From contig CATKHK010000009.1 in NCBI GenBank assembly GCA_949751835.1, positions 558,001 to 622,000 of the forward strand: a stretch of 64,000 nt of DNA. Reading direction: 5' to 3'. The notes under the pieces were generated by a model. It was given only the letters and a program-made list of their open reading frames with translations, had not been told where the DNA came from and searched no databases. The first letter of the stretch is position 1. Each line of letters begins with the position of its first letter. Of this stretch, positions 12,664 through 45,404 are shown piece by piece. A program made the position numbers and the translations under genes. The stretch comes from Blepharisma japonicum. Lineage: Eukaryota; Ciliophora; Heterotrichea; Heterotrichida; Blepharismidae.

Positions 12664-14007
12664 ATGGGTGAAAATTCAGTTGGATCATATGATAATTCTA
12701 GGGATTATTTACTTCAACCACTCAATGATAATGAAGAACCCACCAGACCAGAGCGCAAGTGGACAGACAGAGTCATCGGCAAAATGGAACCTGGGTCAAT
12801 GCGAGGCTCCATTTTCGCATTAATTTCTACAGCAATCGGTGCAGGCTGCTTGACAATCCCTTTAATCTTTAAATGACTAGGCATCACTTTAGGACTTTTT
12901 ATGATTTTTATGGGAGCTTTTTCAAGCTATTACGGTCTAATTGGGATTGCTCTTGCAGCTAACAAGCACAAAAACTACAATTATCCTAATTTAGTAAGGA
13001 CAATCCTAGGCAAGAATTGGGGTATGCTTATGGACATTACGATTATTTTATACGTTTATGGTACTTTAATAGGCTATCAAATTATGATAGGAACTTTTGT
13101 TCCAAGTATAGCTAGGTCGCTTAGCATCAATACAAGCACAGATGAGACGAGAATTGTAATAATGTGCGCATCTTGTATCTTTATTATGATTCCATTGGGC
13201 TTGATGAAGAATTTAAGCTCACTTAGATTTGTTGCGATGCTAAGTGCGTTTACACTTGTGTATATCACCTTTTTGCTGGTATCAGAATATTACTTCGTTG
13301 AAGAACACAATAATATTGGTGAAGTTAATTATTTTGATATAAATGTCAATGTTTTTTCAGGGTACGCATTTTGTCTCTATGCATTTACGTGCCATACCAA
13401 CATTACTCAGGTCCAAGGAGAGCTTAAGTATAGCAACCTCCGCCGCATCAAAAAAATTTCTTTCCGAACTATCCTCAGTATCATGGTTCCTTATATATTC
13501 TTAGGACTTTATGGCTATTTATCTGCCCTAGATGATACTCCAACTTTGATTATTATGAGAGACACCCCAGCAGATATCAATAAAGACTGAGCAATGGTAA
13601 TCTCCAAAATATTTATGTCGATCACACTAATTTTCGCAGTTCCCATCAATATCCACCCTTGCCGCACAACTATAATCAAGAATATGCTAAAAATAGAAAA
13701 CCCTTCCACAAAACTGTAAAGATTATTTAGGCATGTTTCTGTCACCCTTCTCTTACTACTAACCTCCTTAGGGATCGCAATTGTGTATCCTGCAATTACA
13801 GTATTATTCGGATTTTTAGGAGGATTCTGCTGCGGTATAATCGTTCTTATACTCCCAGGTAACTTTTATGCAGCCTTATTAAGGTGCAAGATCATGGGAT
13901 ACCAGCCAAATAGCTGGCAATTCATAATAATTGTAGGAGGTTTCTTTATCCTATTTCTAGTCGGCTCCATCAGTTCAGTTCTTTCTGTTGCAGGAATTGG
14001 AGGCTAA
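12664..14007 (+). CDS. Amino acid transporter (AAAP / SLC36-SLC38-like)
   Basis: A 442-aa integral membrane protein with about 11 TM helices. The family signature at the first helix is GSIFALISTAIGAGCLTIPLIFKW, with Trp as TGA. Later helices include VFSGYAFCLYAFTCHTNI, then the TM8-type FAVPINIHPCRTT. A 15-nt intron at 13716-13730 (phase 2) joins ENPSTK to LHVSVTLL. The protein moves amino acids across plasma or vacuolar membranes, usually with a proton or Na+. The substrate cannot be told. It starts 139 nt after the channel gene on the same strand. Confidence 0.9.
13716..13730 (+). other. 15-nt intron
   Basis: GTAAAGATTATTTAG, phase 2. If retained, TAA (CTG-TAA) follows at once. Confidence 0.9.
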
Positions 14008-14054
14008 TTTAACTTAAAAATATTTATTGAAATTACATAATTTATTATTTGTAA

Positions 14055-16097
14055 CTAATACCCTTTGTCTGTTTCACAAGTCGTTTCTGGGTTCTTTGTG
14101 TCTATAGGTGACAGTTTAAGATTGGATCTTCTTGACGAGTTTAATTCATACCCTTTAGGGGTGAGTTCATTATTGGAATCAATAATACCCGCTAGCTCTT
14201 TGCTGAGACTGATATTTGTCCTTGTAAGTCTTCTATGTTTAATAGTAGTTGTCCTTTCTGATTTCCTTTTGGCGATCTCAAAAACATTTATAGGAGGTGA
14301 GGTTACCGCTGCCATCCTAACCTCTTCTATATCTTCAAAGCCAAAATTGCTCCTCAAAGTCTTTATTTCACCTAGCTGATTGAGCTTGTTCATAGCTTTT
14401 AATTTGGAGGTTACTTCATTAGACATGTTCCCCATCCTGTCCCTTCTTCTTTTAGTTAATACAATTCGGTCGAGTTCTTCTTTTTGGCTTACATTGCTTC
14501 GAGCGTTTGGATCTTTAGGGCATTGACTAGGCAAGTGTCCGATTTCTCTGCAGCTCGGGCATCTTTTATTGTATTTTTTCTTTTCAATTTCTTCTGCAGG
14601 CTCATTTTCTTCTTCTTCGTCTTCATCTCGGCTTTCATGTTTGGAAGTCACGCAGCCAGGGGTATCTTCTTTAATATTTCCACAGCATCAATACATCATT
14701 CCGTTCCATTTCCCAGCATGTCTTAAACAAGATCAATTGTAATTGTCCTTTTCAAAAAAAGGCTTATTGCAATTTTTGCATAACTTTTCTTCATTTAAGC
14801 CAAACTGTTTCCTCTTAGCGTTCATTTCTTTAATTTGGAGCCTCACCTTGGCGTAGCTTTCATTTATTTCTTTAAACTTTTTTTCCATTTGTGAGCACTT
14901 TTCTTCATATGTATCTCTTTCATCTTTAGCTTGGGAGACTTTTTTGCCCATCGTTCCTAATATTTCTTTCATAGTGGATTTTAGTCGTCTGACTTCATCT
15001 CGATATCCTACTCTTTTCATAGAAGTTGTGTCATTTTGCGATATGAATTCTATGCAACTTTTAGTGGTTTGTAAAGCATCTTCTTCAGTTTTGACTCAAA
15101 AAACGAATAAATCGCTACATCGTTTTCTTATAATTTGATTCTCATTATCGATTTTTTCTGTGCTTTTTTCACTGCCGCATAAATCTTCGCAGGCTCCATA
15201 TAAGCCTTTAAGTCTTTCTCCCATGATATCATTTTGCATTTGTAAGGCTGCGTTCCAGTGTTGAAGCTCATTAGCTTTGTCTTTAAGCATTTTGTTTCGT
15301 ATCCTTTCTTTATTAAGCTGATCGATATTTTCAATTCTATCAGCTTCTTTTTTGATATTTAGCTGCCTGTACTCATTTATTTGTTGATTTACTAAGCTTG
15401 CACTGAGCTGTTCAGTTTTCATTCATTTATTTGTTTCTTGGATTTGGTATTTTAAATTATTCAGTGTGCAAATGCTAATTATTAAATTTCCTTTAAGCTC
15501 ATCAATCTCATTCTGGATTCGTTTTTTTTCTAGTTCTGCATCAGTTCATCGGTTTTTTAGATTTTCAAGCTCTTTATTAGTCATGTTTAATTGTTTTGAA
15601 ATAATATCACTAAGCTTGCATTTCACAGTTCTCTCTGGGTTTTCTTTAGAATTGACTCCAAATAGAGATGATCTGCTTTTAGCAGCAATATTACGACCAT
15701 CTGCTTCAAACATTGGAAGTAGAAATTGTTTAATTACTAGAGAAGCAAGCTCTGGGGTAACTTGAATATCATGATGCACATTCCGGTTTTTAATTTTGCT
15801 AGCAATTGTCACTGGAGTTGGGGATGCTACTCTTCCTGCTGATCTTGTAGACAATTGACTTCGCTTGTCTCATTTTTCAAAAAGAGGACTTGATATTGTT
15901 TTATATAGTCTGGCCTCTTCTCTTTTGGTTGATGAGGTTGATGTGGCGTATTTTAAATCATTAGAATCAACTTCTCCTGATAAATGGTTTTTATGAATTC
16001 GTCCGCTTTTTGGTTTTGAGTCTTTGTAGCTTGTATGCCAGATTTTGTAGGTATTTTCATAGTAGCCAGGATCAGTCTCAAGTGCTGTTCGTGACAT
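14055..16097 (-). CDS. Chimeric coiled-coil / zinc-knuckle protein (gene A)
   Basis: A single open frame of 680 aa from ATG 16097 to TAA 14055, with TGA-Trp codons. Residues 1-66 (MSRTALETDPGYYENTYKIWH...EARLY) are a paralogue of the N-terminus of the CHCH gene at 17524-17979. The rest is unrelated to it: a coiled coil, a Cys/His-rich region (CKNCNKPFF...SCLRHAGKWNGMMYWCCG...PGC, residues ~440-480, CHORD-like in spacing) and a CCHC knuckle CPSCREIGHLPSQC (~510-525). The function of the body is unknown. The join lies near 15898, exactly where similarity switches partner, so the gene looks like the product of duplication and deletion (see findings). It converges with the transporter gene, 47 nt apart. 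Confidence 0.8.
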
Positions 16098-16156
16098 AAA
16101 TAATATTTAATATTACAAAATATTTTTGGGATCAATATAGATTATATTTATTATTT

Positions 16157-16771
16157 GACACAAAAGCAATTTGCTTGGATTTAGGCTTGGCAAATCTATA
16201 AGCTGGCTTCTTGAAGCTCTATGTTTAGCATCCTTTGATTCAAAATTTTAAAAGTCCCAGAGTCATAAGGTGGCTTTTTACTTGTAAAATTCCATGTATT
16301 TTCTAAGAATCTTCTCATTATTGAATTAATTGCCTTCCCTATAAGTTCTATACCTGTATTTTACAGTTGTAGGTGAGTAATTTAAGCATGCAGTTTGATG
16401 CAATTAAAAATAATAGATTTTGTCCTGCACATGTGAATATATTCAGGCTTTGAATAAATAATCCCTTTTAATAGCATTGGAGTAGAGCTATTAAAATACC
16501 CTCTTGACTAAATAGATTTACCATCTTCTTCATCTTGAAGTATCAAAGTATGCATCATAATACAAAATTCGCATAAGCTAGCTAGAAGTTCGCTAATAGT
16601 TTTGGCCTGACTTATTATAGTTGTTATTAATTTTTCACTGTCTCTTGACTTTTACTGAGTCTAGAAAATCATTTTTATATTATCATAACTGTCTTGTTTC
16701 CTCTCTTTTAGTATAATTTTGAATCCGCTATAAAATAAATAAACAAATTTGAGTCAATTTCAATTTTGAAT
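16157..16771 (-). pseudogene. Degenerate copy of the 3' third of gene B
   Basis: Nucleotide similarity to 18098-18740 runs along the whole stretch (for example AATTTGCTTG, TTGAAGCTCTATG, GAGTCATAAGG, ATTTTGTCCTG), with many substitutions and indels that destroy the frame. The copy stops abruptly near 16771, where similarity switches to gene A. It is the truncated left-hand partner in a tandem duplication. Confidence 0.8.
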
Positions 16772-17182
16772 CGTCCTATCTCTTAGATTTGGTATTTTAG
16801 ATTATCCAATGAGCAAATGCTAACTATCAAGTTTCCTATAAGCTCATCAATTTCAGCTGGATTCGCTTTTTTTCAGCTGTATCAGAATTTCAAGCTTTTT
16901 AATAGTTATGTTTATATTTTTTTGGATAATATCTCTAAGCTTGCATTCTGAGTTTTCATTAGCATTGACCCAAATCGTAATGATTCGCTTTTAGCAACTA
17001 CGACTTTCTGCTTTAAACATAGAATTAGTATAATTGCTTGAGAATCAAGCTCGGCTAGCTTAGATATCCTGAAATGCGTTCCGATTTTTGATTTACTAGT
17101 GAGAGTCAATGCCAATCTTGCAGACAATTATCTTCTCTTTATCTCTATATCAAAAAAGAAGAGCTGATATTGATTTATGGAT
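16772..17182 (-). pseudogene. Degenerate copy of the middle of gene A
   Basis: Similar to 15433-15897 (shared pieces include GATTTGGTATTTTA, GAGCAAATGCTAA/GTGCAAATGCTAA and AAGCTTGCATT), with frame-breaking indels. It abuts the gene-B copy at 16771 and ends at the GATATTG block, the same block at which gene A switches to its CHCH-like N-terminus. Confidence 0.8.
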
Positions 17183-17523
17183 CTATCACTTTCATTTTTA
17201 TGGATCTATCTTCTTTTTGTCAATGATTGGATTTGTGTTAGCTTAATATATGTGCAGCAACTGCAAAGATATTAGGGGTTTTTGAGAAAACACTTATTTT
17301 AATATTATTTATTCAATTCATGCTAGGTCCAAAAATTCAAATATTTTCACTGAAAACAGTCAAATACTTTTCAATCTTATTTTTTGAGCTTGAATAATAA
17401 TAGCCTATATAATAATTAAAGAGCCAACACAAATTTTCTAACTATAATAAGTAAAATAATGATAAACACTTATCAGCACAATAAATTTCATTACTACCTA
17501 ATTTTTGATGATAAGGATACCTA
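17183..17523. other. Spacer, no intact gene
   Basis: AT-rich, no coding frame. By comparison with gene A this stretch plus part of the CHCH gene (to about 17783) is what the left duplicate lacks. It may contain decayed 5' sequence of the original gene A. Confidence 0.5.
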
Positions 17524-17979
17524 TTACTTATTATAGTCTGATATCTCCATAGCTCTCTGATAAGTGAGATTGTCAATATCTTCATATCTCTTCACAACCT
17601 TTTTCTTCAGAGCTAAATTCTCTACAACCCAGTGAGGGCATTCTTCAAAAATGACACCTTTCCATTGATTGCATTGAGGAACATCATCAACAGGGCTGTG
17701 AACTCCATAGCTAGCTTTGCATTGAACGAGCTTATTGATTTGCTTTGCGCACTCACGTGGGTATGGAATACCTCTAGGTGGGGCATATAGTCTGGCCTCT
17801 CCTCTTTTGGTTGATGGGGCTGATGTTACATACTTCAAATCATGAGAATCAACTTCTCCCCATAAATGGCGTCTATGGATTAGTCCGCTTCTAAATTGTG
17901 AGTCCTTGTAGCTTGTATGCCAGAGTTTGAAGGCATTTTCCCAGTAGCCAGGCTCATTGTCGAGTACGGTTCGCGACAT
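17524..17979 (-). CDS. Twin-Cys (CHCH-like) probable mitochondrial protein (gene C)
   Basis: A 151-aa protein. Residues 1-66 (MSRTVLDNEPGYWENAFKLWHTSYKDS...) match gene A. Then CAKQINKLVQC, a CX9C pair at about residues 78-88, and CNQWKGVIFEEC, a CX10C pair at about 103-114, form a CHCH-like helix pair. The C-terminus is charged. CHCH proteins are imported into the mitochondrial intermembrane space and many are respiratory-complex subunits, so a ciliate-specific complex subunit is a fair guess. All Trp here are TGG. The ATG lies 105 nt downstream of the stop of gene B, and its upstream DNA resembles that of gene A. Confidence 0.7.
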   Translation of the reverse strand: MSRTVLDNEPGYWENAFKLWHTSYKDSQFRSGLIHRRHLWGEVDSHDLKYVTSAPSTKRGEARLYAPPRGIPYPRECAKQINKLVQCKASYGVHSPVDDVPQCNQWKGVIFEECPHWVVENLALKKKVVKRYEDIDNLTYQRAMEISDYNK

Positions 17980-18084
17980 AAATAATATTTAATACTAAAA
18001 AATCTTTTAACCCAATGATAAAGCTTATTTATTATTGTTGAAACAAAAACAGCAGAAATATATATAACATTTTTATTTATTTAT

Positions 18085-20829
18085 TTATTTTAAAGATTGG
18101 ATATCCAAGAACAATTTGCTTGTATTTATGCTTGGTAAATCTATATGCTGACTTTTTGAAGCTCTATGCTTAGTACCCTTTGAACAAGGCAAAATATCTG
18201 AATCATTCAAGCTTTTAAAAGACCCAGAGTCATAAGGGGGCTTCGTACTCGCAGAGTTCCATGCATTTCCTAAGAATCCTCCCATTATTTGAATTAATTG
18301 CCTTCTGTTATAAGTTCTATACCTATATTTTATAGGTGTAGGTGAGTAATTTAAGCATGCCAGTTTAAATGCATTTAAAAGTAATGGATTTTGTCCTGTA
18401 CATGTTATACATTCAGGTTTTAAAGAAATAACCCCTTTTGATAGCACTGGGGTAGAGTTATCAGAATACCCCGTTAATTGAATAGATTGTCTATCTTCTT
18501 CATCTTGAAGCATCAAAGTATGCATCACCCTACAAAATTCGCTTAAGCTAGCTACAAGCTCACTAATATTTTCAACCTGACTTATTATAGTTGTCATTAA
18601 TTTTTCACGATCCTTTGACTCTTGTTGGGTCTGGGAAATCATTTTTTGTATATCATACCTGTCTTGTTTTCTTTCTTTTAGCATAATCTTGAATTCGCTA
18701 TTAAATAAATCAAAATTTGAGTCAATTTCACTTTTGAATTGCTCTAAAGATGCTTTGCAGAATAAAACAGTGGATTCTAAATCATTTTTGAGAGGTTCAA
18801 TATCATCTTTAAAAATGAAGACATCTTTAAGTGGCTCAAATTCATCTTTGAAAATTAAGAGATGGCTGAGTGAGCGTTTTAGGTCATCAATTTGGGTATA
18901 AATTTCATCAAGGCCGTTTGAAGACTCAGAAAGATCAGTTTCTGTTAAATTAAGGTTTTCAGGCTTTGGATTGTTGCTTTGAGTCGAAATTTCTTCGAAA
19001 TTGATATTTTCTTTAAGCTCTTCTATTGGGTTATTAGTGTCTAATTTGGGCTGATATGAAAAACTAGTGCTTTCGAGCGGATAAGCATTTTGTGCAGGTG
19101 GGTTGATTTTTTCATATTCTGGATTTAAACTTGTAGGCTTTTCCTGAGTTTGTTTTAGAGAAGCAGTTTTTGGCATTTTTTCTTTATCAAATTTATCTAC
19201 TTGATCTTCAGCTTTTATAGGAATTTCATTTAAAGATTCAATTTGATGTGAGTGTAATTTTTGATCTTCTTGAACTTGAAAGTTTAATGGCTTTTTCTGA
19301 TTTATAGTCTCTTCAAAGCTGCTTTGGATATTTGAAGAGTTCAGCATTTTGTTTTTTGAGTTATTTTCTGGTGATATTCTTTGACTATATTCAACATTTT
19401 TATTTTCCTGATAATTGTCTATATGTCTGGTTTCTTGCAAACCAGGTAAAGTCTTCTCTCTAGCTGATATTTCGGCCATGACTTTTGAAGATTTTTTTTC
19501 AGGTCTTATTCTTTTAGACCTGTTTTTTGTTGTTTTATTTTGCAGATTTTCAGATATTTCAATGGCTTGAGAATTTGAAGGCAATTCTTCTATAATCTCT
19601 TGATCTTCTTTGAATTTTCCAACCATATTTTCATTAATATGCGAACTAAGATCTCTTACTCTCTTACTTTCAATAGTCTCCTCTATTATTTCTTTTATAG
19701 GTAAACTGCTATCTGATGAATTTATCACACTTTTTATTTGGGTTGATGATTTTTCATTTTTTAATGATCTATGGCTTTTATGACTTCGAATAATAGCTTC
19801 ACTTTCTTTCTTCAGCAGCGCCTTTCTAGATTCATCAACAGCTTTAGCATTATTTAATCGTGAATTTCTGATTTCGTCAATTCCATCAAAAGAAATTTTT
19901 GCTTTATCTATGATTTCATCAATTGTCAGTTTGTTTCCATCCTCAGTTTTTAGCTTTTCCAATTTGGAATTTTCATAATTTATGAAATTTACTAAATCCT
20001 CATGGCCTAGAAAAACACTCAGAGACTCAGAAATATCATATAGCCTTTCCTTAGGTAGTTGAGTTTGGATATACTCTAATGTTTTATTTTTAAAATCTCT
20101 AAGCTCAACAATTTCTTCATATAATACACTTATTTCTTTCTGTATCTGTTTCTTAAGCCTTATAAGTTCCTTATCTTCTATTTCTTCATTTTTATTTTCT
20201 ATTTTCTGTTTTACTTCTCTTATCTTAATTTTTAACATCTCCACATCTTTATTTATTGCAGGTAAAACATTTTCATTAATATCAGCCATTTGTCTTTTGT
20301 TATCTTCAATAGTGTCTCTAAAATTTTCTCAATCCTCCCTAATAGTATTGCAGCAATTTCAGACTTCTTCTCTATTTTTAGTATTTTCTTCAGTAATTGA
20401 TTTTCTATCATTTTGAAAACTATACTTAAATTCCTCAACTAAACTTCGGATTCCCATTTGAGCATCTTGCAAAGAAGAAAAGTTGACTAAAATATTTTCA
20501 AATAAATGATTTATATTGTCAACACTAGTCTGAAGGCTTTCAAACCGAAACATATTGTGTGCATCTTGAGTATTCTTTTGGTTTCTCAGTTCTGTAAGCG
20601 ATTTGCTCAGCTCATCAATAGTAATTACTTTTTTCAATGTTTTATCACTAATAAAATCAAGCTCATCTAGTCTTTTTTGAGCAGAATTATCGTGCTTTAT
20701 TAGCTTGTCAATAGATTCTTCATGGTTTGTAACTCGCCTTAGTGTAGGTGCTATAAGTTCTGATACAATTCCTCGTATTTTGGTTTCAAATGTAAAAAAA
20801 TCAAACTCAGAGGTACGCGCAGATTCCAT
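18085..20829 (-). CDS. Long coiled-coil protein with conserved C-terminal domain (gene B)
   Basis: A 914-aa frame from ATG 20829 to TAA 18085. The N-terminal 180 residues are joined to the rest through two TGA-Trp codons (EEVWNCCNTIREDWENF). The protein is mostly coiled coil with a Ser/Lys/Glu-rich middle. The C-terminal ~110 residues contain a distinct module, CITCTGQNPLLLNAFKLAC then SPTPIKYRYRTYNRRQL, which resembles a domain I associate with protist ciliary coiled-coil proteins. No enzyme motif was seen. Its ATG is only 9 nt after the stop of the PAP2-like gene on the same strand. The 3' third is duplicated as a pseudogene at 16157-16771. Confidence 0.75.
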
Positions 20830-20838
20830 TTAATTACT

Positions 20839-22047
20839 TTATAATTTACGTTTAGTTTTGCCTATAGACTTAAGCTCATTTTCTTCATCTATGTCTGGAG
20901 GGACATCCAAAGCTAATTGGATTTTTGAGAAAAATAGTGGTAAGAGTCCTGCACATATATAAGCAATTAAAAATAACGGAAAAGCGTATTTCCACATGTA
21001 CTCTGTTGTAGTGTCCTCTGTTACTATTAAATTAAACAGCGCATATATTCCAATGCTAGTACCAGCTGAAATCGCATACCTGAGAAAACTTTTCCATATA
21101 CTTGTGCACCCCCAAAACATTGATAAATGTTTTGCAGTAAACATCGCCCCAGTTACAAACCCTAAATTATAAAAAATTCAAGCAGACTTATAAAATGTAG
21201 ACGCCCCGCCTACATCATAATTCCAGTTACAATGTGTTGTCGCATTTTTTATCCATGAAATATCAGTCGCATGATTTAACGTAACAATATCATATATTGA
21301 TACTACTCCTAGCAATAAAAACATAGTCACAATAAACCAATAAACCACATAAACTCTATTAGTTTTGTAATTAAAACAGCTTTTTAATGTAAAATCCATC
21401 ATAAGTTTGTCAAATACAAATAAAGCTGTTAAATAAATAAAAGCATAGCAAAATGTAATAAAAATTTGATGCGGGAAATATTCCCCTAGATATACAGTGC
21501 CGAAGCTTAAAAGGATAAGCAGAATTAATGTAAAAGAATAAGCTAGAATTCGAAATTTGCTACGGTGAAAAAATTCAATCGCAGTGGTACAGTATAAGAC
21601 AGAGCCTAGTAAAATCTCCTCAGCTGGGTTTCCATATCCTGACCTGCATAAAACACTTTTTATATCATCATCAATCCAGAACGGTCGTGGTTCTTTGTAA
21701 AATAAAGCAATAAAGCTATACAAGTACATAGAAAAACAAGAAATAAATATCACTTTAATTCCTCTCCTTGGATCGCATAGGTGGTAAAAAGCTGGGGCTA
21801 AAGCAATAAGCGCTCATTCTGTGCCGAGATAAGAAATCAGCCGAAAAAATTCTTTTCCACTCTCAGTACGGTCTTGTTGAAGATCATAAATAAAGCCTGT
21901 TCCTGAATCTGCTAAGACTTCTCTTAAGAGACCTTCTAGAGGAATTATAAAAAGCAAGGTAACTAATGCCAAAATACGTACAAGAATTGAAGTTTTTACT
22001 AAAGTGTCGTCTGCTATTTTTGGTACAAAAACACTTACTCGATTCAT
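20839..22047 (-). CDS. PAP2-superfamily-like membrane protein, catalytic residues altered
   Basis: A 402-aa multi-TM protein with two TGA-Trp codons. It has the layout of glucose-6-phosphatase / sphingosine-phosphate phosphatases: FYKEPRPFW (motif 1), SGYGNPAEEILLGS where the family has GNPSGH (motif 2), and GTVYLGEYFPHQIF where it has SRxYLGxHFPHQ (motif 3). The motif-2 His and the motif-3 Arg and His are replaced (AEE; T and Y), so phosphatase activity is doubtful. About 9-10 helices. Stop and start are 9 nt from gene B and 37 nt from the upstream gene, all on the minus strand. Confidence 0.75.
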
Positions 22048-38835: not shown

Positions 38836-40210
38836 ATGAGATCGATGAAAAAATGGGAGCAAGAAGTCCAAATGAAAATCCATAAAGACAGGATAAAAAG
38901 AGCAAGATACCCACTGAGATCAAGCACAAAAACCCTTCACACCACAAATGGAAGCCAACGAATCAGCACAACTGGGATTTTGATAGGATATTTGCGAGAA
39001 TTTGGACTACAACAACATTATAGAGTAGCTTTAATGTTAGAATTTGGCAGAGCAAGGATTTGATGAAGATCCACAGAGGTTCGCTATGCTTACTCATATG
39101 GAGCTAGAAAATATTTTAGCTTCATTGAAGATTCTTCCAGGCCAAAGAGAAAAATTCAGAACAATGCAAGATAGAATAAGAGGGGTAACGAATATTTAGA
39201 ACTCTATAGATTCTTTACTTGCTGAAGCAAGAGCTTGCTCTGCCGTTGTGGATCGCAATTTTAAAGAAGTTAAAATCCAAACGAGAACTGGGTCAATGGA
39301 TAATGCATATAGATATAATGACCATTCTAGATTATCTGAAACCATCAAATTGAAAAATGAATTAATTGAAGCTCAAGAAGAGATAAAAGCACTTGAAAAA
39401 CAAATAGCGGAAACCCAAATAAAAAATAATAAAAATTCAGGCTTGGTGCATTTGCCACCGATTTCTGATTCACCGAAAATTTCGACAAAATCTGATAAAA
39501 AAATGCAGACGCAGGTGAAATTTGTGGAGTGCGAAGAAAAGAGAGATTTTGATGCCAATGAGCTTGGGAAATCTTATGATTCGTGAAAAATGTGATCGAC
39601 TTTACATAATATGGATATAGAAGAGATATCAAAATGCTTTTCTAGAATTATTGAGTCACAATGCAACCAAAATTCCAATCAAAGTCTAGGTCTCATTCAA
39701 GAAATCACTGTACCCTTATATGATTATACTGAAACCATTCCTGAAGAAAAAACTATTTATAATTACTGCAGAAATTTAATGAATAAAGCACTGATGGAAA
39801 AAGAGTGCCCTGTTTTAGCTTTGATTTATATAGGAAGATTAATGGAAAAAGCCAGAATTGGCTTGAATAATTGGAACTGAAAACGAATTGTTTTTACAAG
39901 CTTGCTATTAGGCTCCAAAATTTGGGATGATGAGTCTGCTACTAATGCTACAATTGCCGATAATTTTTCAATGTATACACTATCTGAGATGAATAAAATG
40001 GAAAGATCATATCTAATTCTTTTAGATTATGAACTTAATGTTAAAAAAGCAGATTATGCTAATGCTTATTTTTTATTGAGAAGTTATTCTAAAAAAAAAG
40101 ACAGGAGCTACCCTTTAAAACCACTTGATGTGGACACGGTACTTAGGTTGCAAAAAAAGTGTGAAAAAACTGAAAATGTGGCAAAGGAGTCTTTATTAAA
40201 ATCTTTTTAA
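38836..40210 (+). CDS. SAM domain plus cyclin-Y-type cyclin
   Basis: A 447-aa protein from three exons: a 16-nt intron at 39025-39040, which shifts the frame, and a 15-nt intron at 39185-39199. Exon joins give LREFGLQQHYR-NLAEQGFDEDPQRF...LTHMELENILASLKILPGQREKF, a SAM fold. A coiled coil follows, then (through TGA-Trp codons) a cyclin box: IYNYCRNLMNKALMEKECP, LNNWNWKRIVFTSLLLGSKIWDDES, LSEMNKMERSYLILLDYELNV, closest to cyclin Y / PHO80-type cyclins. By family it should activate a CDK14/PHO85-like kinase. The 3' third is duplicated as a pseudogene near 43060-43330. Confidence 0.88.
39025..39040 (+). other. 16-nt intron
   Basis: GTAGCTTTAATGTTAG, the only 16-nt intron found. A at position 10. 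It contains no in-frame stop but changes the frame. Confidence 0.85.
39185..39199 (+). other. 15-nt intron
   Basis: GTAACGAATATTTAG, phase 0. Removal joins MQDRIRG to NSIDSLLAEA. Confidence 0.88.
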
Positions 40211-40447
40211 AGTAACTAATTGTGATTGATAATGTTTTATTTCAAAAAAATTATTATTTAATTTGATGAAAGCATATGAGAACATCAGTAAAAGTAACGA
40301 GCTAATATGTCTTATCTATAAAGTGTTATTGATAAATTGATTTTTTTTTTCATAAGATAATAATTAATATTCATGGAAATTGTTATTAAAACATTCACTG
40401 TGCACATTCTACAATAATTAGACCCATATATACAATTAAATTAATAA

Positions 40448-42139
40448 ATGAGTTCCATTCAATGCTGCGTTTCTGAATGCAAACTTAGGCCAGAATATTT
40501 ATGTAGCTGCACAAACCCAAAATCTGCTCTCTGCATTACTCACCTAAATAACCATGGAGATCCTGGTGTTATTTCTCATCCATTTGAAAACATTTTTTGT
40601 CGGCCTTTAGAGAATACTAAAATAAGTCTTTTAGCTCGCCTTAGACAAGAAAAAACAAAAATTAATGCAATGAAGCAAAAATTTATCTTGGATGACTCTA
40701 AAAATATAAAAAATATTGTAGATGGTTTGAAAAATAAAAACAACGCATTAGCTTCAGGAATTAAGACAATAGATTATTATATAGTTACAATTATGAATGC
40801 TGCTGAAGTAGATAGAAATAGTGATGATTCTTTATTGAAGCTTCTTTTGCTCAGCTCAAGCGAAGCTTTACTTCAAATTGATCAGGTAATTAAGGATATT
40901 ATTGATTTTGGATCAATAGCTGATAATTGCTATTTTAATGAGAGGCAAGATGAAGCAAATGCATGCTCATTAGAAACAATTGAAAAAATTAATAAATTGG
41001 AAATAGAGGTAAAGGAGCTTAGAGAAGAAGTAATATCTCTAAGAGAATTAAAAGAAGAAGTAAAATCCTTAAGAGAATTAAAAGAAGAAGTAAAATCCCT
41101 AAGAGAATTAAAAGAAGAAGTAAAATCTCTAAGAGAAATTATAGACAGCCAGGCCATTCATCAGAGCTCAAGTATAGAAAAACCCAAAATTATTGAAAAT
41201 AGTGAAGAATCAAAAGAAATAGCATCAGTGGTAAAGGACCTTAACCAAGAATTGCAAATCCAAATTCCTTCATGCTCTGCAAGTAAACCATTAAATTCGC
41301 AGGTCCCACAAAAAAAAAGTGATATACCTCTACTTAATTCCCCAATAATTCTCAAGCCACCAAAGCATGGACTCAGAGACTTTGGCAACTCCTCCTTTAT
41401 TAATTCTGTACTACAAGTCCTTTCCAGCTTCACAATTTTTGTAGAAATCACAATTGACTCTGACGACTATTTGCTCAAAACTTTAAATTTTTTATTATTA
41501 AGCATGAAAAATCCAAGTGAACAAGCAAAAATTGATACTTTATTACTTAAAACAATTACTGCATTATCCCAAGAATATCCTATTGTATTACTTATTTAGA
41601 TTAACCAAAATAAAGACCCAAGGCTTTTATTAGAACTTATTCTATTAAGATTTATGGAAGTATACCCAGGAGATAATTTATTTACAGTAGTTAAACATGA
41701 AAAAATAGTGTGCAGTTTAGGACATATTAATGAAAATGACAGCAGCGAAAGTATTGTAAACATACCTGATTTAGCTAGCGGGCAAATTAAAGATGCAATT
41801 GATTCTTTAAAAGCCCCTAAAGTTCTTACTATGGATTGTAGCATTTGCAATAAGGCGCAAGAATGCACAATTTCTATACCTTCCATTGACTTACCTTGCT
41901 TTTTGATAATTAGTTTCTGTGCTAAAAGTGACTTTGTATTGCCAGAAATGTTTTGCTATGAAGATTCTTCATATGAGCTGTTTGGGGCGATAAACAAAGT
42001 TAAAAATCTAGGAATTTTTGATAAATATGTTGCATTGACAAAGGATGATGGATCTTGGAGTAAATATGACAATAAAGTCGCAGAATGCTGCAATATCGAT
42101 TTTAAAGGATGCTGCCTTGCCTTTTATATGAATGTTTAG
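40448..42139 (+). CDS. B-box-like plus coiled-coil plus inactive USP-like protein (copy 1)
   Basis: A 558-aa protein in two exons (intron 41585-41599). The N-terminus CCVSECKLRPEYLCSC...LCITHLNNH is B-box-like. Residues ~180-240 are coiled coil with a 10-residue repeat (RELKEEVKSL). The C-terminal half has USP form: GLRDFGNSSFINSVLQVLSSF where active enzymes have GNTCY, a Cys/His zinc pair (CSLGH...CSICNKAQEC), and SYELFGAINK...FDKYVALTKDDGSWSKYDNKV where active enzymes have GHY. Catalytic Cys and His are both replaced, so this is probably a ubiquitin-binding pseudo-protease. A second copy lies 3.1 kb downstream. Confidence 0.8.
41041..41130 (+). repeat. Three 30-bp tandem repeats in coding sequence
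   Basis: Three nearly identical 30-bp units beginning AAGAGAATTAAAAGAAGAAG encode the 10-residue coiled-coil unit RELKEEVKSL. The paralogue at 43532 lacks the expansion. Confidence 0.9.
41585..41599 (+). other. 15-nt intron
   Basis: GTATTACTTATTTAG, phase 0, identical in sequence to the intron of copy 2 (44541-44555). Confidence 0.9.
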
Positions 42140-43059
42140 AAATTAGATCTTAATTTAAGCTATTTTTTAGCAAAATTTATATTGAAATTAATTTTATGTT
42201 CTTCCCAATTGACTAAAATATTTAAAATTGGATGCGCTTTGGGGTCTTAACATTTTCGACAAAAATATTAAAAAAAAGTGTTTGATTCAAAAATACATTA
42301 AAAAATGTTTTGTGGGCAGATCCAAAAGTGCAAAATAAAGGGTATAAATTCGCTTATTATTTAATTAACTTCAAATTTTTAATCAAATCGCTAAAGTTTT
42401 AACTTTTAAAATGGCATTGGTAAATAAAGATAGTGACAAAGAATAAAAAATTAAAAAAAATTGAGCGGGAATTGAAAAATACAAATAAAGGCCTTTAATC
42501 ACTTATTATTTCCTCAATTTTAACTTTCTAATCAAACCGCACCAAGTGGAAGAAAGTTTTAACTTCTAAAGTGGTAATGGTAAGATACCATTAAAGCTGA
42601 TGAACTATTCCAACTAATAGATCTCAGCACATAACTAAACTCATTTGATGCTATATTTGGAAGGCGTTTTTACATTTTCAATAGATCTGAAAAAAGTTTT
42701 TATTTATGGAGGATGAAGATTATTATTTTTTGTTTACTATAGAAGTATGAGTTTAAAGCCTTTTGAATTGAGGAATCAATCCAATATAATTAATTTACTT
42801 GTTTAAAAATAAGACAAATTAAAATAAGCATCTTAGCATTTTAAAATCTCTTTTGCTTCTAATAATATTTCCAAGATCTTAAGTGCTATACTATAAAATG
42901 AAATGCACTATATAGCTGCTTCAAACCCTCAGTGTAAAAAATACTACAATTTTGACTGAATAAAAATTGGTCAGACAACTTTACATACCATTTTATCAAA
43001 TAGATTATTATAACTCTTTAAAAATATGAGCACTTGAATACGTCCCATATAATTCTATC
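42140..43059. other. Spacer downstream of copy 1
   Basis: AT-rich, no intact gene. The first part resembles the DNA just after copy 2 (TTGACTAAAATATTT near 42210 and 45185). It holds the direct repeats described separately. Confidence 0.5.
42333..42583 (+). repeat. Two diverged ~90-100 bp direct repeats, noncoding
   Basis: 42333-42423 and 42483-42583 share AAATAAAGG, CTTATTATTT, CTAATCAAA/TTAATCAAA, AAAGTTTTAACTT and GGTAATGGTAA/GGCATTGGTAA in order. No coding frame. Within the 0.9-kb spacer downstream of copy 1. Confidence 0.65.
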
Positions 43060-43330
43060 ACAAATGCAGATAACTTTTCAGTATATATGCTATTAGAAAC
43101 GAATAAAATGAAAGATAATTTCTTCTTCTTTAGATTATGAACTTAATGTTAAAACGAAGATTATGCAAATTATTACTTTTTGTTAGAATCTATAATAAAG
43201 GAAAATGGCAGAAGCTACCCTTTAAAACCTTTTGATGTGGACGCGGTTTTTAGATTGTAAAAAATTGCGAAAACTGAAAACGTAGCAGAGGAGTCGTTAT
43301 TAAATTTTTTTAAAGTAACTTATCGTGATT
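43060..43330 (+). pseudogene. Degenerate copy of the SAM-cyclin gene 3' end
   Basis: Matches 39945-40215 throughout (GATTATGAACTTAATGTTAAAA, GAAGCTACCCTTTAAAACC, TTTTGATGTGGACGCGG), with indels that break the frame. It lies upstream of copy 2 as the cyclin gene lies upstream of copy 1, marking the left end of a tandem duplication. Confidence 0.85.
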
Positions 43331-43531
43331 GATAATATTTTTACTCAAAAATTCGTTTATTTAATTTGATAATTTAGTAAAAATAGATGAGTATGTGAGT
43401 AAAAATAATTTAGCTAATTTGATTAATTTATAAAGCTTAAGATATATTGATATTTCTTTTCATTTGATAATAATCTATATTAATAAAATTTGTTCTTAAA
43501 TAGCTAATTTATATAATAATTATATTAATAA

Positions 43532-45101
43532 ATGAGTTCCATTCAATGCTGTGTTTCTGGATGCAAACTTAAGCCAGAATATTTATGCAGCTGCACGAAC
43601 CCAGAATCAGTTGTCTGCCTTACTCACTTAAATAGCCATGGAGATTCTGGACTTTTTTCTCATTCATTTAAAAACATTTTTTGTCGGCCTTTAGAGGATA
43701 CTAAAATAACTCTTTTAGCTCACCTTAGACAAGAAAAAAAGAAAATTAATGCAATGAAGCTAAAATTTATTTCTGAGGATTCTACAAATATACAAAATAT
43801 GGAAGATATTTTGAAAAATAAAATTAAGGCATTAACTTCAGGAATTAAGGCAATAGATTATTATATAGTTACAATTATGGCCACTAATGAAGTTGAAAGA
43901 AGCAGCGATGATTCTTTATTGAAACTTCTTTTACTTAGTCCAAGTGAAGCTTTGCTTCAAGTTGATCAAGCAATTAAAGATAATATCGATTTTGGGTCGA
44001 TTGCTGATAATTGTTGTTCTAAGTTAGGGCATGATGAAGTGAATCCAGTCTCGTTAGAAACAATTCAAAAAATCAATAAATTGGAAATAGAAGTAAAGGA
44101 ACTCAGAGAGAAAGTAGCATCACTAAGTGAATTAAGTGAAGAAGTAAAATCTCTAAGAGAAATTATAAGAATCCAGATCATTCAGCAGAGTTCAAATATA
44201 GAAAATACAAAAAATTTCGAAAAAAAAGAAGAATCTAAAGAAATAGCTTCAGAGACAAGGAACTTTAGCCAAGAATTGCAATCACATATGCTTTCATTTT
44301 CTGGAAATACACCATTCATTACACGGGCTCAAGGACTTTGGAGACACGTCTTTTATAAATTCTGTTATGCAAGTCCTCTCCAGCTTTAATATTTTTATAG
44401 AAATGACAATTGACTCTTGCGACTACATGCTAAACTCTATAAATAAACTATTAAGAAGCATGAAAAATTCAACTGAACAAAGAGGTATCGATGATCTATT
44501 GCTTAATGTAATCTCTGCCTTAGCCCAAGCATATCCTGTTGTATTACTTATTTAGATTAATACAAATAAAGACCCAAGACTTCTACTGGAATTTATTTTA
44601 TCAGATTTTGTTCAATTATGCCCAGTGGATAATTTAATCGCAGTAGTTAAGCATTCACAAATAGTTTGTAGTCTAGGCCATGCTAATGAAAGCGTTAACT
44701 GTGAAAACCTTCTATATTTGCCTGATTTAGTTAATAACGGTCAAATTAAAGATGCAATTGATAGCTTAAAAGCTCAAAAATCTCTTATTATGAATTGCAA
44801 ATTTTGCAATAAGACTGATATGTGCACCATAACTATACCATGAATTGAGCTACCTTGTTTTTTGATTATTAGTTTGAACTTTCAAGATGGCTTAGTATTG
44901 CCAGAAAAATTTTGTTATGAAAATTCTTCATATGAGTTGTTTGGGGTGATAAAGAAGGTTACTAATCAAGGAATGTCTAATAAAAAATATATTGCAATGA
45001 CGAAGGATGATGGCATTTGGTGGAAATATGATAATGAAATTTCAGAATGCACCAATATCAACTTTGCAGGATGCTATCTCGCTTTTTATATGAGCATTTA
45101 A
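43532..45101 (+). pseudogene. B-box / USP-like protein, copy 2, frameshifted
   Basis: The first 240-250 codons are a close paralogue of copy 1 (MSSIQCCVSGCKLKPEYLC...). Near 44300-44330, about 20 codons present in copy 1 are missing and the frame shifts. The USP part continues in the next frame (GLKDFGDTSFINSVMQ), then the same 15-nt intron (44541-44555) and a TGA-Trp (IPWIELPC), to TAA 45101. No GT...AG of 15-16 nt spans the break. As it stands the gene would give a 285-aa truncated protein. The USP part also lacks catalytic Cys and His (GDTS; NKKY). Confidence 0.8.
44541..44555 (+). other. 15-nt intron in copy 2
   Basis: GTATTACTTATTTAG, identical to the intron of copy 1, showing it predates the duplication. 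Confidence 0.85.
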
Positions 45102-45404
45102 AGATTAGGATAAATTATTTTAAAGAATTTTATAATTTTTAGATAATTAATAAGCATTAATCTTAATTAAATTGTTTCTCAAATTGACTAAAATATTTGA
45201 AATTTTCCTTATAAGTAATAATATAATTCCAAGCTTAATCCAATTTTTTAAAAAATAAAAATATTTCAAAAATATTTTCAAAATCTTTTTCCACCCAATT
45301 TTCCTCTATAATATCCTCTCTTCCCTCTACATTATTTTCTTTCTTTTAAATGATGCATGAATATTCTCGTACAAATACTCAAAAAAGAGAGGTGTATATA
45401 TAAA

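Follow-up and report, generated by a model that had tools for sequence, protein, structure and literature searches.

How does a single open reading frame come to begin as one gene and to continue as another? The question is raised by a locus of Blepharisma japonicum on contig CATKHK010000009.1 (C9), at which a minus-strand frame opens with the N-terminus of a gene for a protein with paired cysteine motifs (gene C) and carries on as a member of a different family (gene A). The window analyzed here is the whole 64,000-nucleotide stretch C9:558001-622000, within a 45.2-Mb assembly of 224 contigs, and all comparisons were made inside this one genome. Both the open reading frames of the window and an alignment of the A family indicate that TGA is read as tryptophan, and a neighboring transporter gene is broken by a 15-bp GT...AG stretch. 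These two features are like those described for Blepharisma stoltei, in which UGA encodes Trp and introns measure 15-16 bp (PMC9942806). A tRNA scan of the whole window returned none, the terminal 120 bases at either end of C9 and of contig C46 (see below) contain no telomeric repeat, and the products of A, B (a further gene of the locus) and C are all without a family above Pfam's cut-off. Among the matches listed for titles on Blepharisma genomes, fusion and duplication or on ciliate chimeric genes, none dealt with the locus, which is not proof that it is unpublished.

Architecture of the locus

The initial annotation had read the region as one tandem duplication of a unit running from inside A to inside B, followed by a deletion in the left copy. 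Self-BLASTN over window positions 13000-22000 confirmed this repeat map: 15433-16771, the left copy, corresponds at 73-76% identity to the right copy at 16772-18740, apart from about 606 bp that it lacks. The underlying direct matches are 15903-16771 versus 17785-18739 (76.4%, E = 0), 15436-15796 versus 16781-17094 (72.7%, E = 1.8e-53) and 15842-15904 versus 17115-17178 (76.6%, E = 3e-6). In minus-strand orientation one passes B, C, A', B' and finally the fused gene; the features are as follows (window coordinates).

14055..16097, minus strand: fused gene with its borrowed start at 16097, 680 codons (TGA = W) and then a stop; open frame, aligned with 11 A-family paralogs
15903..16097, minus strand: borrowed leader, the first 65 codons of a C-type gene; gapless match to 17785-17979
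14055..15904, minus strand: body of A, with variable tail, coiled coil, BTK-like Cys/His motif and CCHC knuckle
16098..16156, minus strand: DNA derived from the region upstream of C, presumably promoter and 5' UTR; from the alignment
16157..16771, minus strand: B', decayed 3' part of gene B, pseudogene fragment; 6 internal indels and stops
16771..16772, no strand: tandem-duplication junction, from inside B to inside A; placed within about 10 bases
16772..17178, minus strand: A', decayed 5' part of gene A, pseudogene fragment; 10 internal indels relative to A
17179..17784, no strand: right-copy equivalent of the left-copy deletion, 606 bp; A's start region, spacer and 3' part of C
17524..17979, minus strand: gene C, intact, 151 aa, CX9C/CX10C, ATPTT5-like
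18085..20829, minus strand: gene B, intact, 914 aa; open reading frame

Most of the finer detail of the initial annotation held as well. The switch from C to A exists, not at about 15898 but 5 bases away at 15903-15904, where self-BLASTN and the alignment place it and where the two sources overlap by 2 bp (AT, read from the alignment). Across the deletion gap the first codons of C continue in frame into the A body, and codon 66 of the fused frame is already A-derived; the proposed fusion of a CHCH N-terminus to A therefore stands, with 65 rather than 66 codons derived from C. The loss of about 600 bp from the left copy was likewise found, its limits moving from 17183-17783 to 17179-17784. The switch from B to A, expected at about 16771, was present in the self-comparison at about 16771/16772, and no long homology was seen in the alignment at this joint. 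As proposed, the frame 14055-16097 on the minus strand is open for 680 codons when TGA is read as W, and the right copy kept intact C and B (open frames 17524-17979 and 18085-20829). The observation behind the initial annotation is confirmed, and the history that it proposed is well supported.

The 15 bp adjoining the ATG of the fused gene are identical to those of C, and an RNA fold of the 5' region of the fused gene showed nothing unusual (z -0.70). A genome-wide DNA search with gene B returned B and B' as the sole matches. By eye, the minus strand upstream of A' (window positions 17174-17210) shows two copies of GATAGATCCATAAA, spaced 23 bp apart and flanking ATGAAAGT, so that what the right copy retains of A's own start seems scrambled.

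Gene C, the A family and an unfused sister locus

The cysteines of C (C77/C87 and C103/C114) are spaced CX9C/CX10C, and helices are predicted at residues 74-91 and 101-113 in a low-confidence single-sequence model (mean pLDDT 48.8) that was used for helix positions only. Among solved structures the sole match to C below 0.001 was the weak one to Tetrahymena ATPTT5 (6ynx_j, E = 5e-4). ATPTT5 and ATPTT8 have the CX9C/CX10C cysteine spacing (PMC7583250). ATPTT5, a subunit of the Tetrahymena type III ATP synthase, shares this spacing with C and weakly resembles its C-terminal sequence, the likeness being confined to C residues 74-151, and the borrowed leader has no detected counterpart in ATPTT5. 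The borrowed part stops before the first of the CX9C/CX10C cysteines.

The A family has at least 16 matches in this genome, of which 12, including the fused gene, were taken into the alignment. Its architecture comprises an N-terminal tail that varies in length and sequence from member to member, a long coiled coil, a BTK-like Cys/His motif (in 10 of the 12 at E<=0.1, although the fused protein does not reach the Pfam cut-off for it) and mostly a CCHC knuckle, which is present in eight of the 12, the frames of the other four ending before it. That A proteins act as scaffolds would be a guess from this architecture. Four loci of the family (L022, L024, L025 and L026) have one in-frame TAG each within the match, and their frames stop shortly beyond the Cys/His motif, short of any CCHC knuckle, which may reflect a tiny intron or a break in the frame.

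What the locus looked like before fusion can be judged from contig C46, on which C46:297996-343168 is paralogous to window positions 8058-54651, mostly inverted and at 66-90% identity. The search that defined this block compared the window with C46:246001-354000 and gave, at E<=1e-8, 17 BLASTN matches that include the leader; over the final 10 kb of C46 there was no match to the window at this threshold. The block is suggestive of a segmental or whole-genome duplication with genes lost on both sides. Within it, C is single and intact (C46:325825-326277, 97% amino acid identity to its C9 counterpart; Ka/Ks between the two 0.034), and A is a separate gene 4.0 kb away (C46:330314-332191) with 67% amino acid identity to the A body of the fused gene. 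The neighbors are collinear on both sides of this unfused arrangement, which is a paralogous one within the same genome.

Several further features of the two contigs were noted. A local rearrangement within the block affects window positions 26.2-28.7 kb. Between C and A on C46, at positions 2473-6172 of C46:324001-334000, lie a kinesin gene (326473-329811) and a gene for a 119-aa protein. A tblastn search of the window for relics of the two found none (best E 0.48 and 0.74), nor did one of the spacer 17183-17523 (best E 0.17), and elsewhere in the genome nothing matched the 119-aa protein. In C46:316001-334000, tblastn with gene B and with a PAP2 gene found nothing at E<=1. The window also holds a second diverged tandem duplication (39950-42229 and 43060-45204, pieces at 74-80% identity) with two plus-strand genes starting MSSIQCCVS (40448-41596 and 43532-44386), and the interval 39950-45204 had no BLASTN match in C46:246001-354000 at E<=1e-8.

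The N-termini give the direction of change. A on C46 starts MKSYRTFFE and the next closest paralog, on contig C87, starts MLSYRTTLE; over these N-termini 18 of 44 residues are identical (E = 2e-6 for that single comparison). Because these two paralogs have N-termini that are similar to each other and different from that of the fused gene, the fused N-terminus is the derived state. A search of the genome with the C protein found the C-type leader in three places only, namely C, its C46 copy and the fused gene. Although the fused body aligns with 11 paralogs, the leader is absent from all of these, and no relative within this genome was found to share the fused N-terminus without the duplication. 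At leader sites the fusion agrees with C on C9 against C46 at 27 positions and with C46 against C on C9 at only 4. The duplication therefore looks younger than the split between the C9 and C46 copies, unless gene conversion homogenized the neighboring genes, which could mimic this pattern.

Fate of the gene body, the relics and the leader

With A on C46 as the outgroup, the history of A can be compared with that of its right-copy relic over codons 67-225. At 401 sites, 13 changes were assigned to A and 61 to A'. The disparity is seen upstream of Met129 (9 versus 24, p = 0.014) and from Met129 on (4 versus 37, p = 1e-7), and the ratio of silent to replacement changes, in counts that include codons 64-66, was 7:7 for A and 14:49 for A' (Fisher p = 0.048). 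Internal indels number 10 between A and A'; none separate A from A on C46 over codons 67-225. These last two genes give a Ka/Ks of 0.073, with a Ks of 2.8 that is near saturation. Codon positions on the short A branch are unbiased (5/3/6, p = 0.61), and of the 14 ancestral codons inferred for this branch one would read as a stop; the outgroup is therefore distant enough for some multiple hits, and the counts are noisy. B' departs from B at 97 of the 612 sites that align, evenly across codon positions (34/30/33), as well as by 6 internal indels, and it has stops in all three frames. By these measures A' and B' are pseudogene fragments, as the initial annotation had supposed for the right-copy A, and the A body has been kept under selection since the duplication, changing more slowly than its relic.

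The leader behaves differently from the body. On the fusion branch 27 of its 195 sites have changed (13.8%), compared with 61 of 401 for A' (15.2%). These changes are spread 8/11/8 over codon positions, with 5 silent and 22 replacement, and do not depart from a neutral expectation built from sites at which the C genes of C9 and C46 agree (p = 0.59). Because this pattern fits the neutral expectation, unlike that of the same segment within C, which is constrained between C9 and C46 (Ka/Ks 0.056), the leader residues appear not to be preserved and to drift at the rate of a pseudogene. Part of the drift may predate the deletion, at a time when the left C was a spare copy. No protein-level selection was detected on the borrowed segment, yet it has neither a stop nor an indel over its 65 codons. 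In simulations using pooled A' and B' indel rates, the neutral probability of keeping the ATG without a stop or frameshift was about 0.015; if only the B' rate is used, an indel-free leader is no longer significant (P0 = 0.15).

An absence of purifying selection on leader residues is also what an untranslated leader would show. In one alternative reading the segment is solely a 5' UTR, with C's promoter in use and A starting internally at Met129 or at a non-ATG codon. The in-frame methionines of the fused frame are residue 1 and then residue 129. P128-M129-F130, together with A118 and V121 upstream of it, is invariant in the 12 aligned members. The invariance of P-M-F is in part a product of how frames were selected, because for the ten paralogs other than those on C9 and C46, which a similarity search had located, the frames were chosen with a regular expression for that motif (present at 10 of 10 loci), but A118 and V121 are exempt from this effect. 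In a model of the fused protein (mean pLDDT 61.0, pTM 0.22, used for helix positions only), residues 1-101 are at pLDDT under 50, a helix spans residues 115-131 in a block at pLDDT 64-70, and the A body contains long helices. A start at Met129 would cut through the 12-member motif and remove most of this predicted helix. The stretch from the leader to Met129 has, moreover, changed less than its counterpart in A' (9 versus 24), and the leader itself is free of stops and indels. We judge the purely untranslated leader improbable. Since the next in-frame methionine lies within the family motif, translation probably starts at the borrowed ATG.

A different possibility is that the N-terminus of C carries the A product to mitochondria and that the fusion was selected for this effect. 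The resemblance of C to an ATP synthase subunit speaks for such retargeting, but the leader is without the CX9C/CX10C cysteines, and its residues are unconserved on the fusion branch even though the same segment of C is conserved between C9 and C46. Its first 20 residues include three acidic and two basic ones, a charge pattern unlike that of a classical mitochondrial presequence. The altered localization of the A product suggested in the initial annotation is unsupported by these observations, and we regard retargeting as very unlikely.

It is also conceivable that the 606-bp loss is an IES excised anew in each somatic nucleus, the germline left copy being full. Blepharisma IESs have a median length of 255 bp with the 90th percentile at 603 bp, and about three quarters are TA-bound (PMC9942856); the 606-bp size would fit them. 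Both the C side of the joint and the corresponding A sequence of C46 offer a TA. However, the right-copy relic A' has TG at the joint position, and a TA by chance is easy at 32% G+C. Excision in each somatic nucleus seems a most doubtful account of the missing segment, and a deletion in the germline is the reading we adopt. Lastly, a fusion created by misassembly, or a dead gene, is scarcely credible, as the copies differ at about 1/4 of sites and A' and B' have decayed in a way that no assembler would create (an argument that does not cover the deletion joint itself), while the 680-codon frame is open and the A body has changed less than A'.

Proposed history and comparison with known chimeras

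We consider it highly likely that duplication plus deletion let A capture a start and a presumed promoter, along with a disposable tail, while its function was kept. A tandem duplication of ~2 kb, whose unit began within A, took in C and ended in the 3' part of B, set a second C upstream of full-length A, beside B' and A' in truncated form. The left copy afterwards lost about 606 bp at a 2-bp overlap. With this deletion went the original start of A, the spacer and the 3' end of the extra C, so that 65 codons from the beginning of C now run in frame into the A body. The resulting gene would be read from the ATG of C and, we infer, from its promoter as well. The borrowed segment would serve as a start-and-promoter cassette with a disposable, disordered tail in place of A's own variable one; the variability of tails among A-family members fits the replacement of one disposable tail by another. 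The function of the A protein would be retained.

Measured against known chimeras, the locus has two segments in one open frame that trace to different sources (the leader to C, the body to the A family), an unfused arrangement in the C46 paralogous block of the same genome, and a tandem-duplication footprint in the form of the B' and A' relics and the junction at about 16771/16772. Chimeras born of tandem duplication are typically created by the duplication joint itself. Unlike chimeras of the Drosophila yakuba type, the joint here left only B'-A' debris, and it was a later deletion in the left copy that made the fusion. In D. yakuba, chimeric structures arise by tandem duplication, which also reshuffles regulatory elements among genes (PMC5460883), and in yielding a chimera with shuffled regulatory elements the present locus appears to be the same. 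The D. yakuba cases come from a population sample, whereas here there is one old, diverged case in a single assembly. The kind of event is already known; this example is unusually well preserved. Because the debris and an unfused sister locus persist in the genome, one can work out in what order and direction the steps occurred and how old they are relative to one another, which makes this a readable case of a gene that would have lost its own promoter and start and survived by capturing those of a neighbor. It also shows that a borrowed N-terminal segment can drift at the rate of a pseudogene while the gene downstream of it is kept, and cautions that a newly fused segment need not be a new functional domain.
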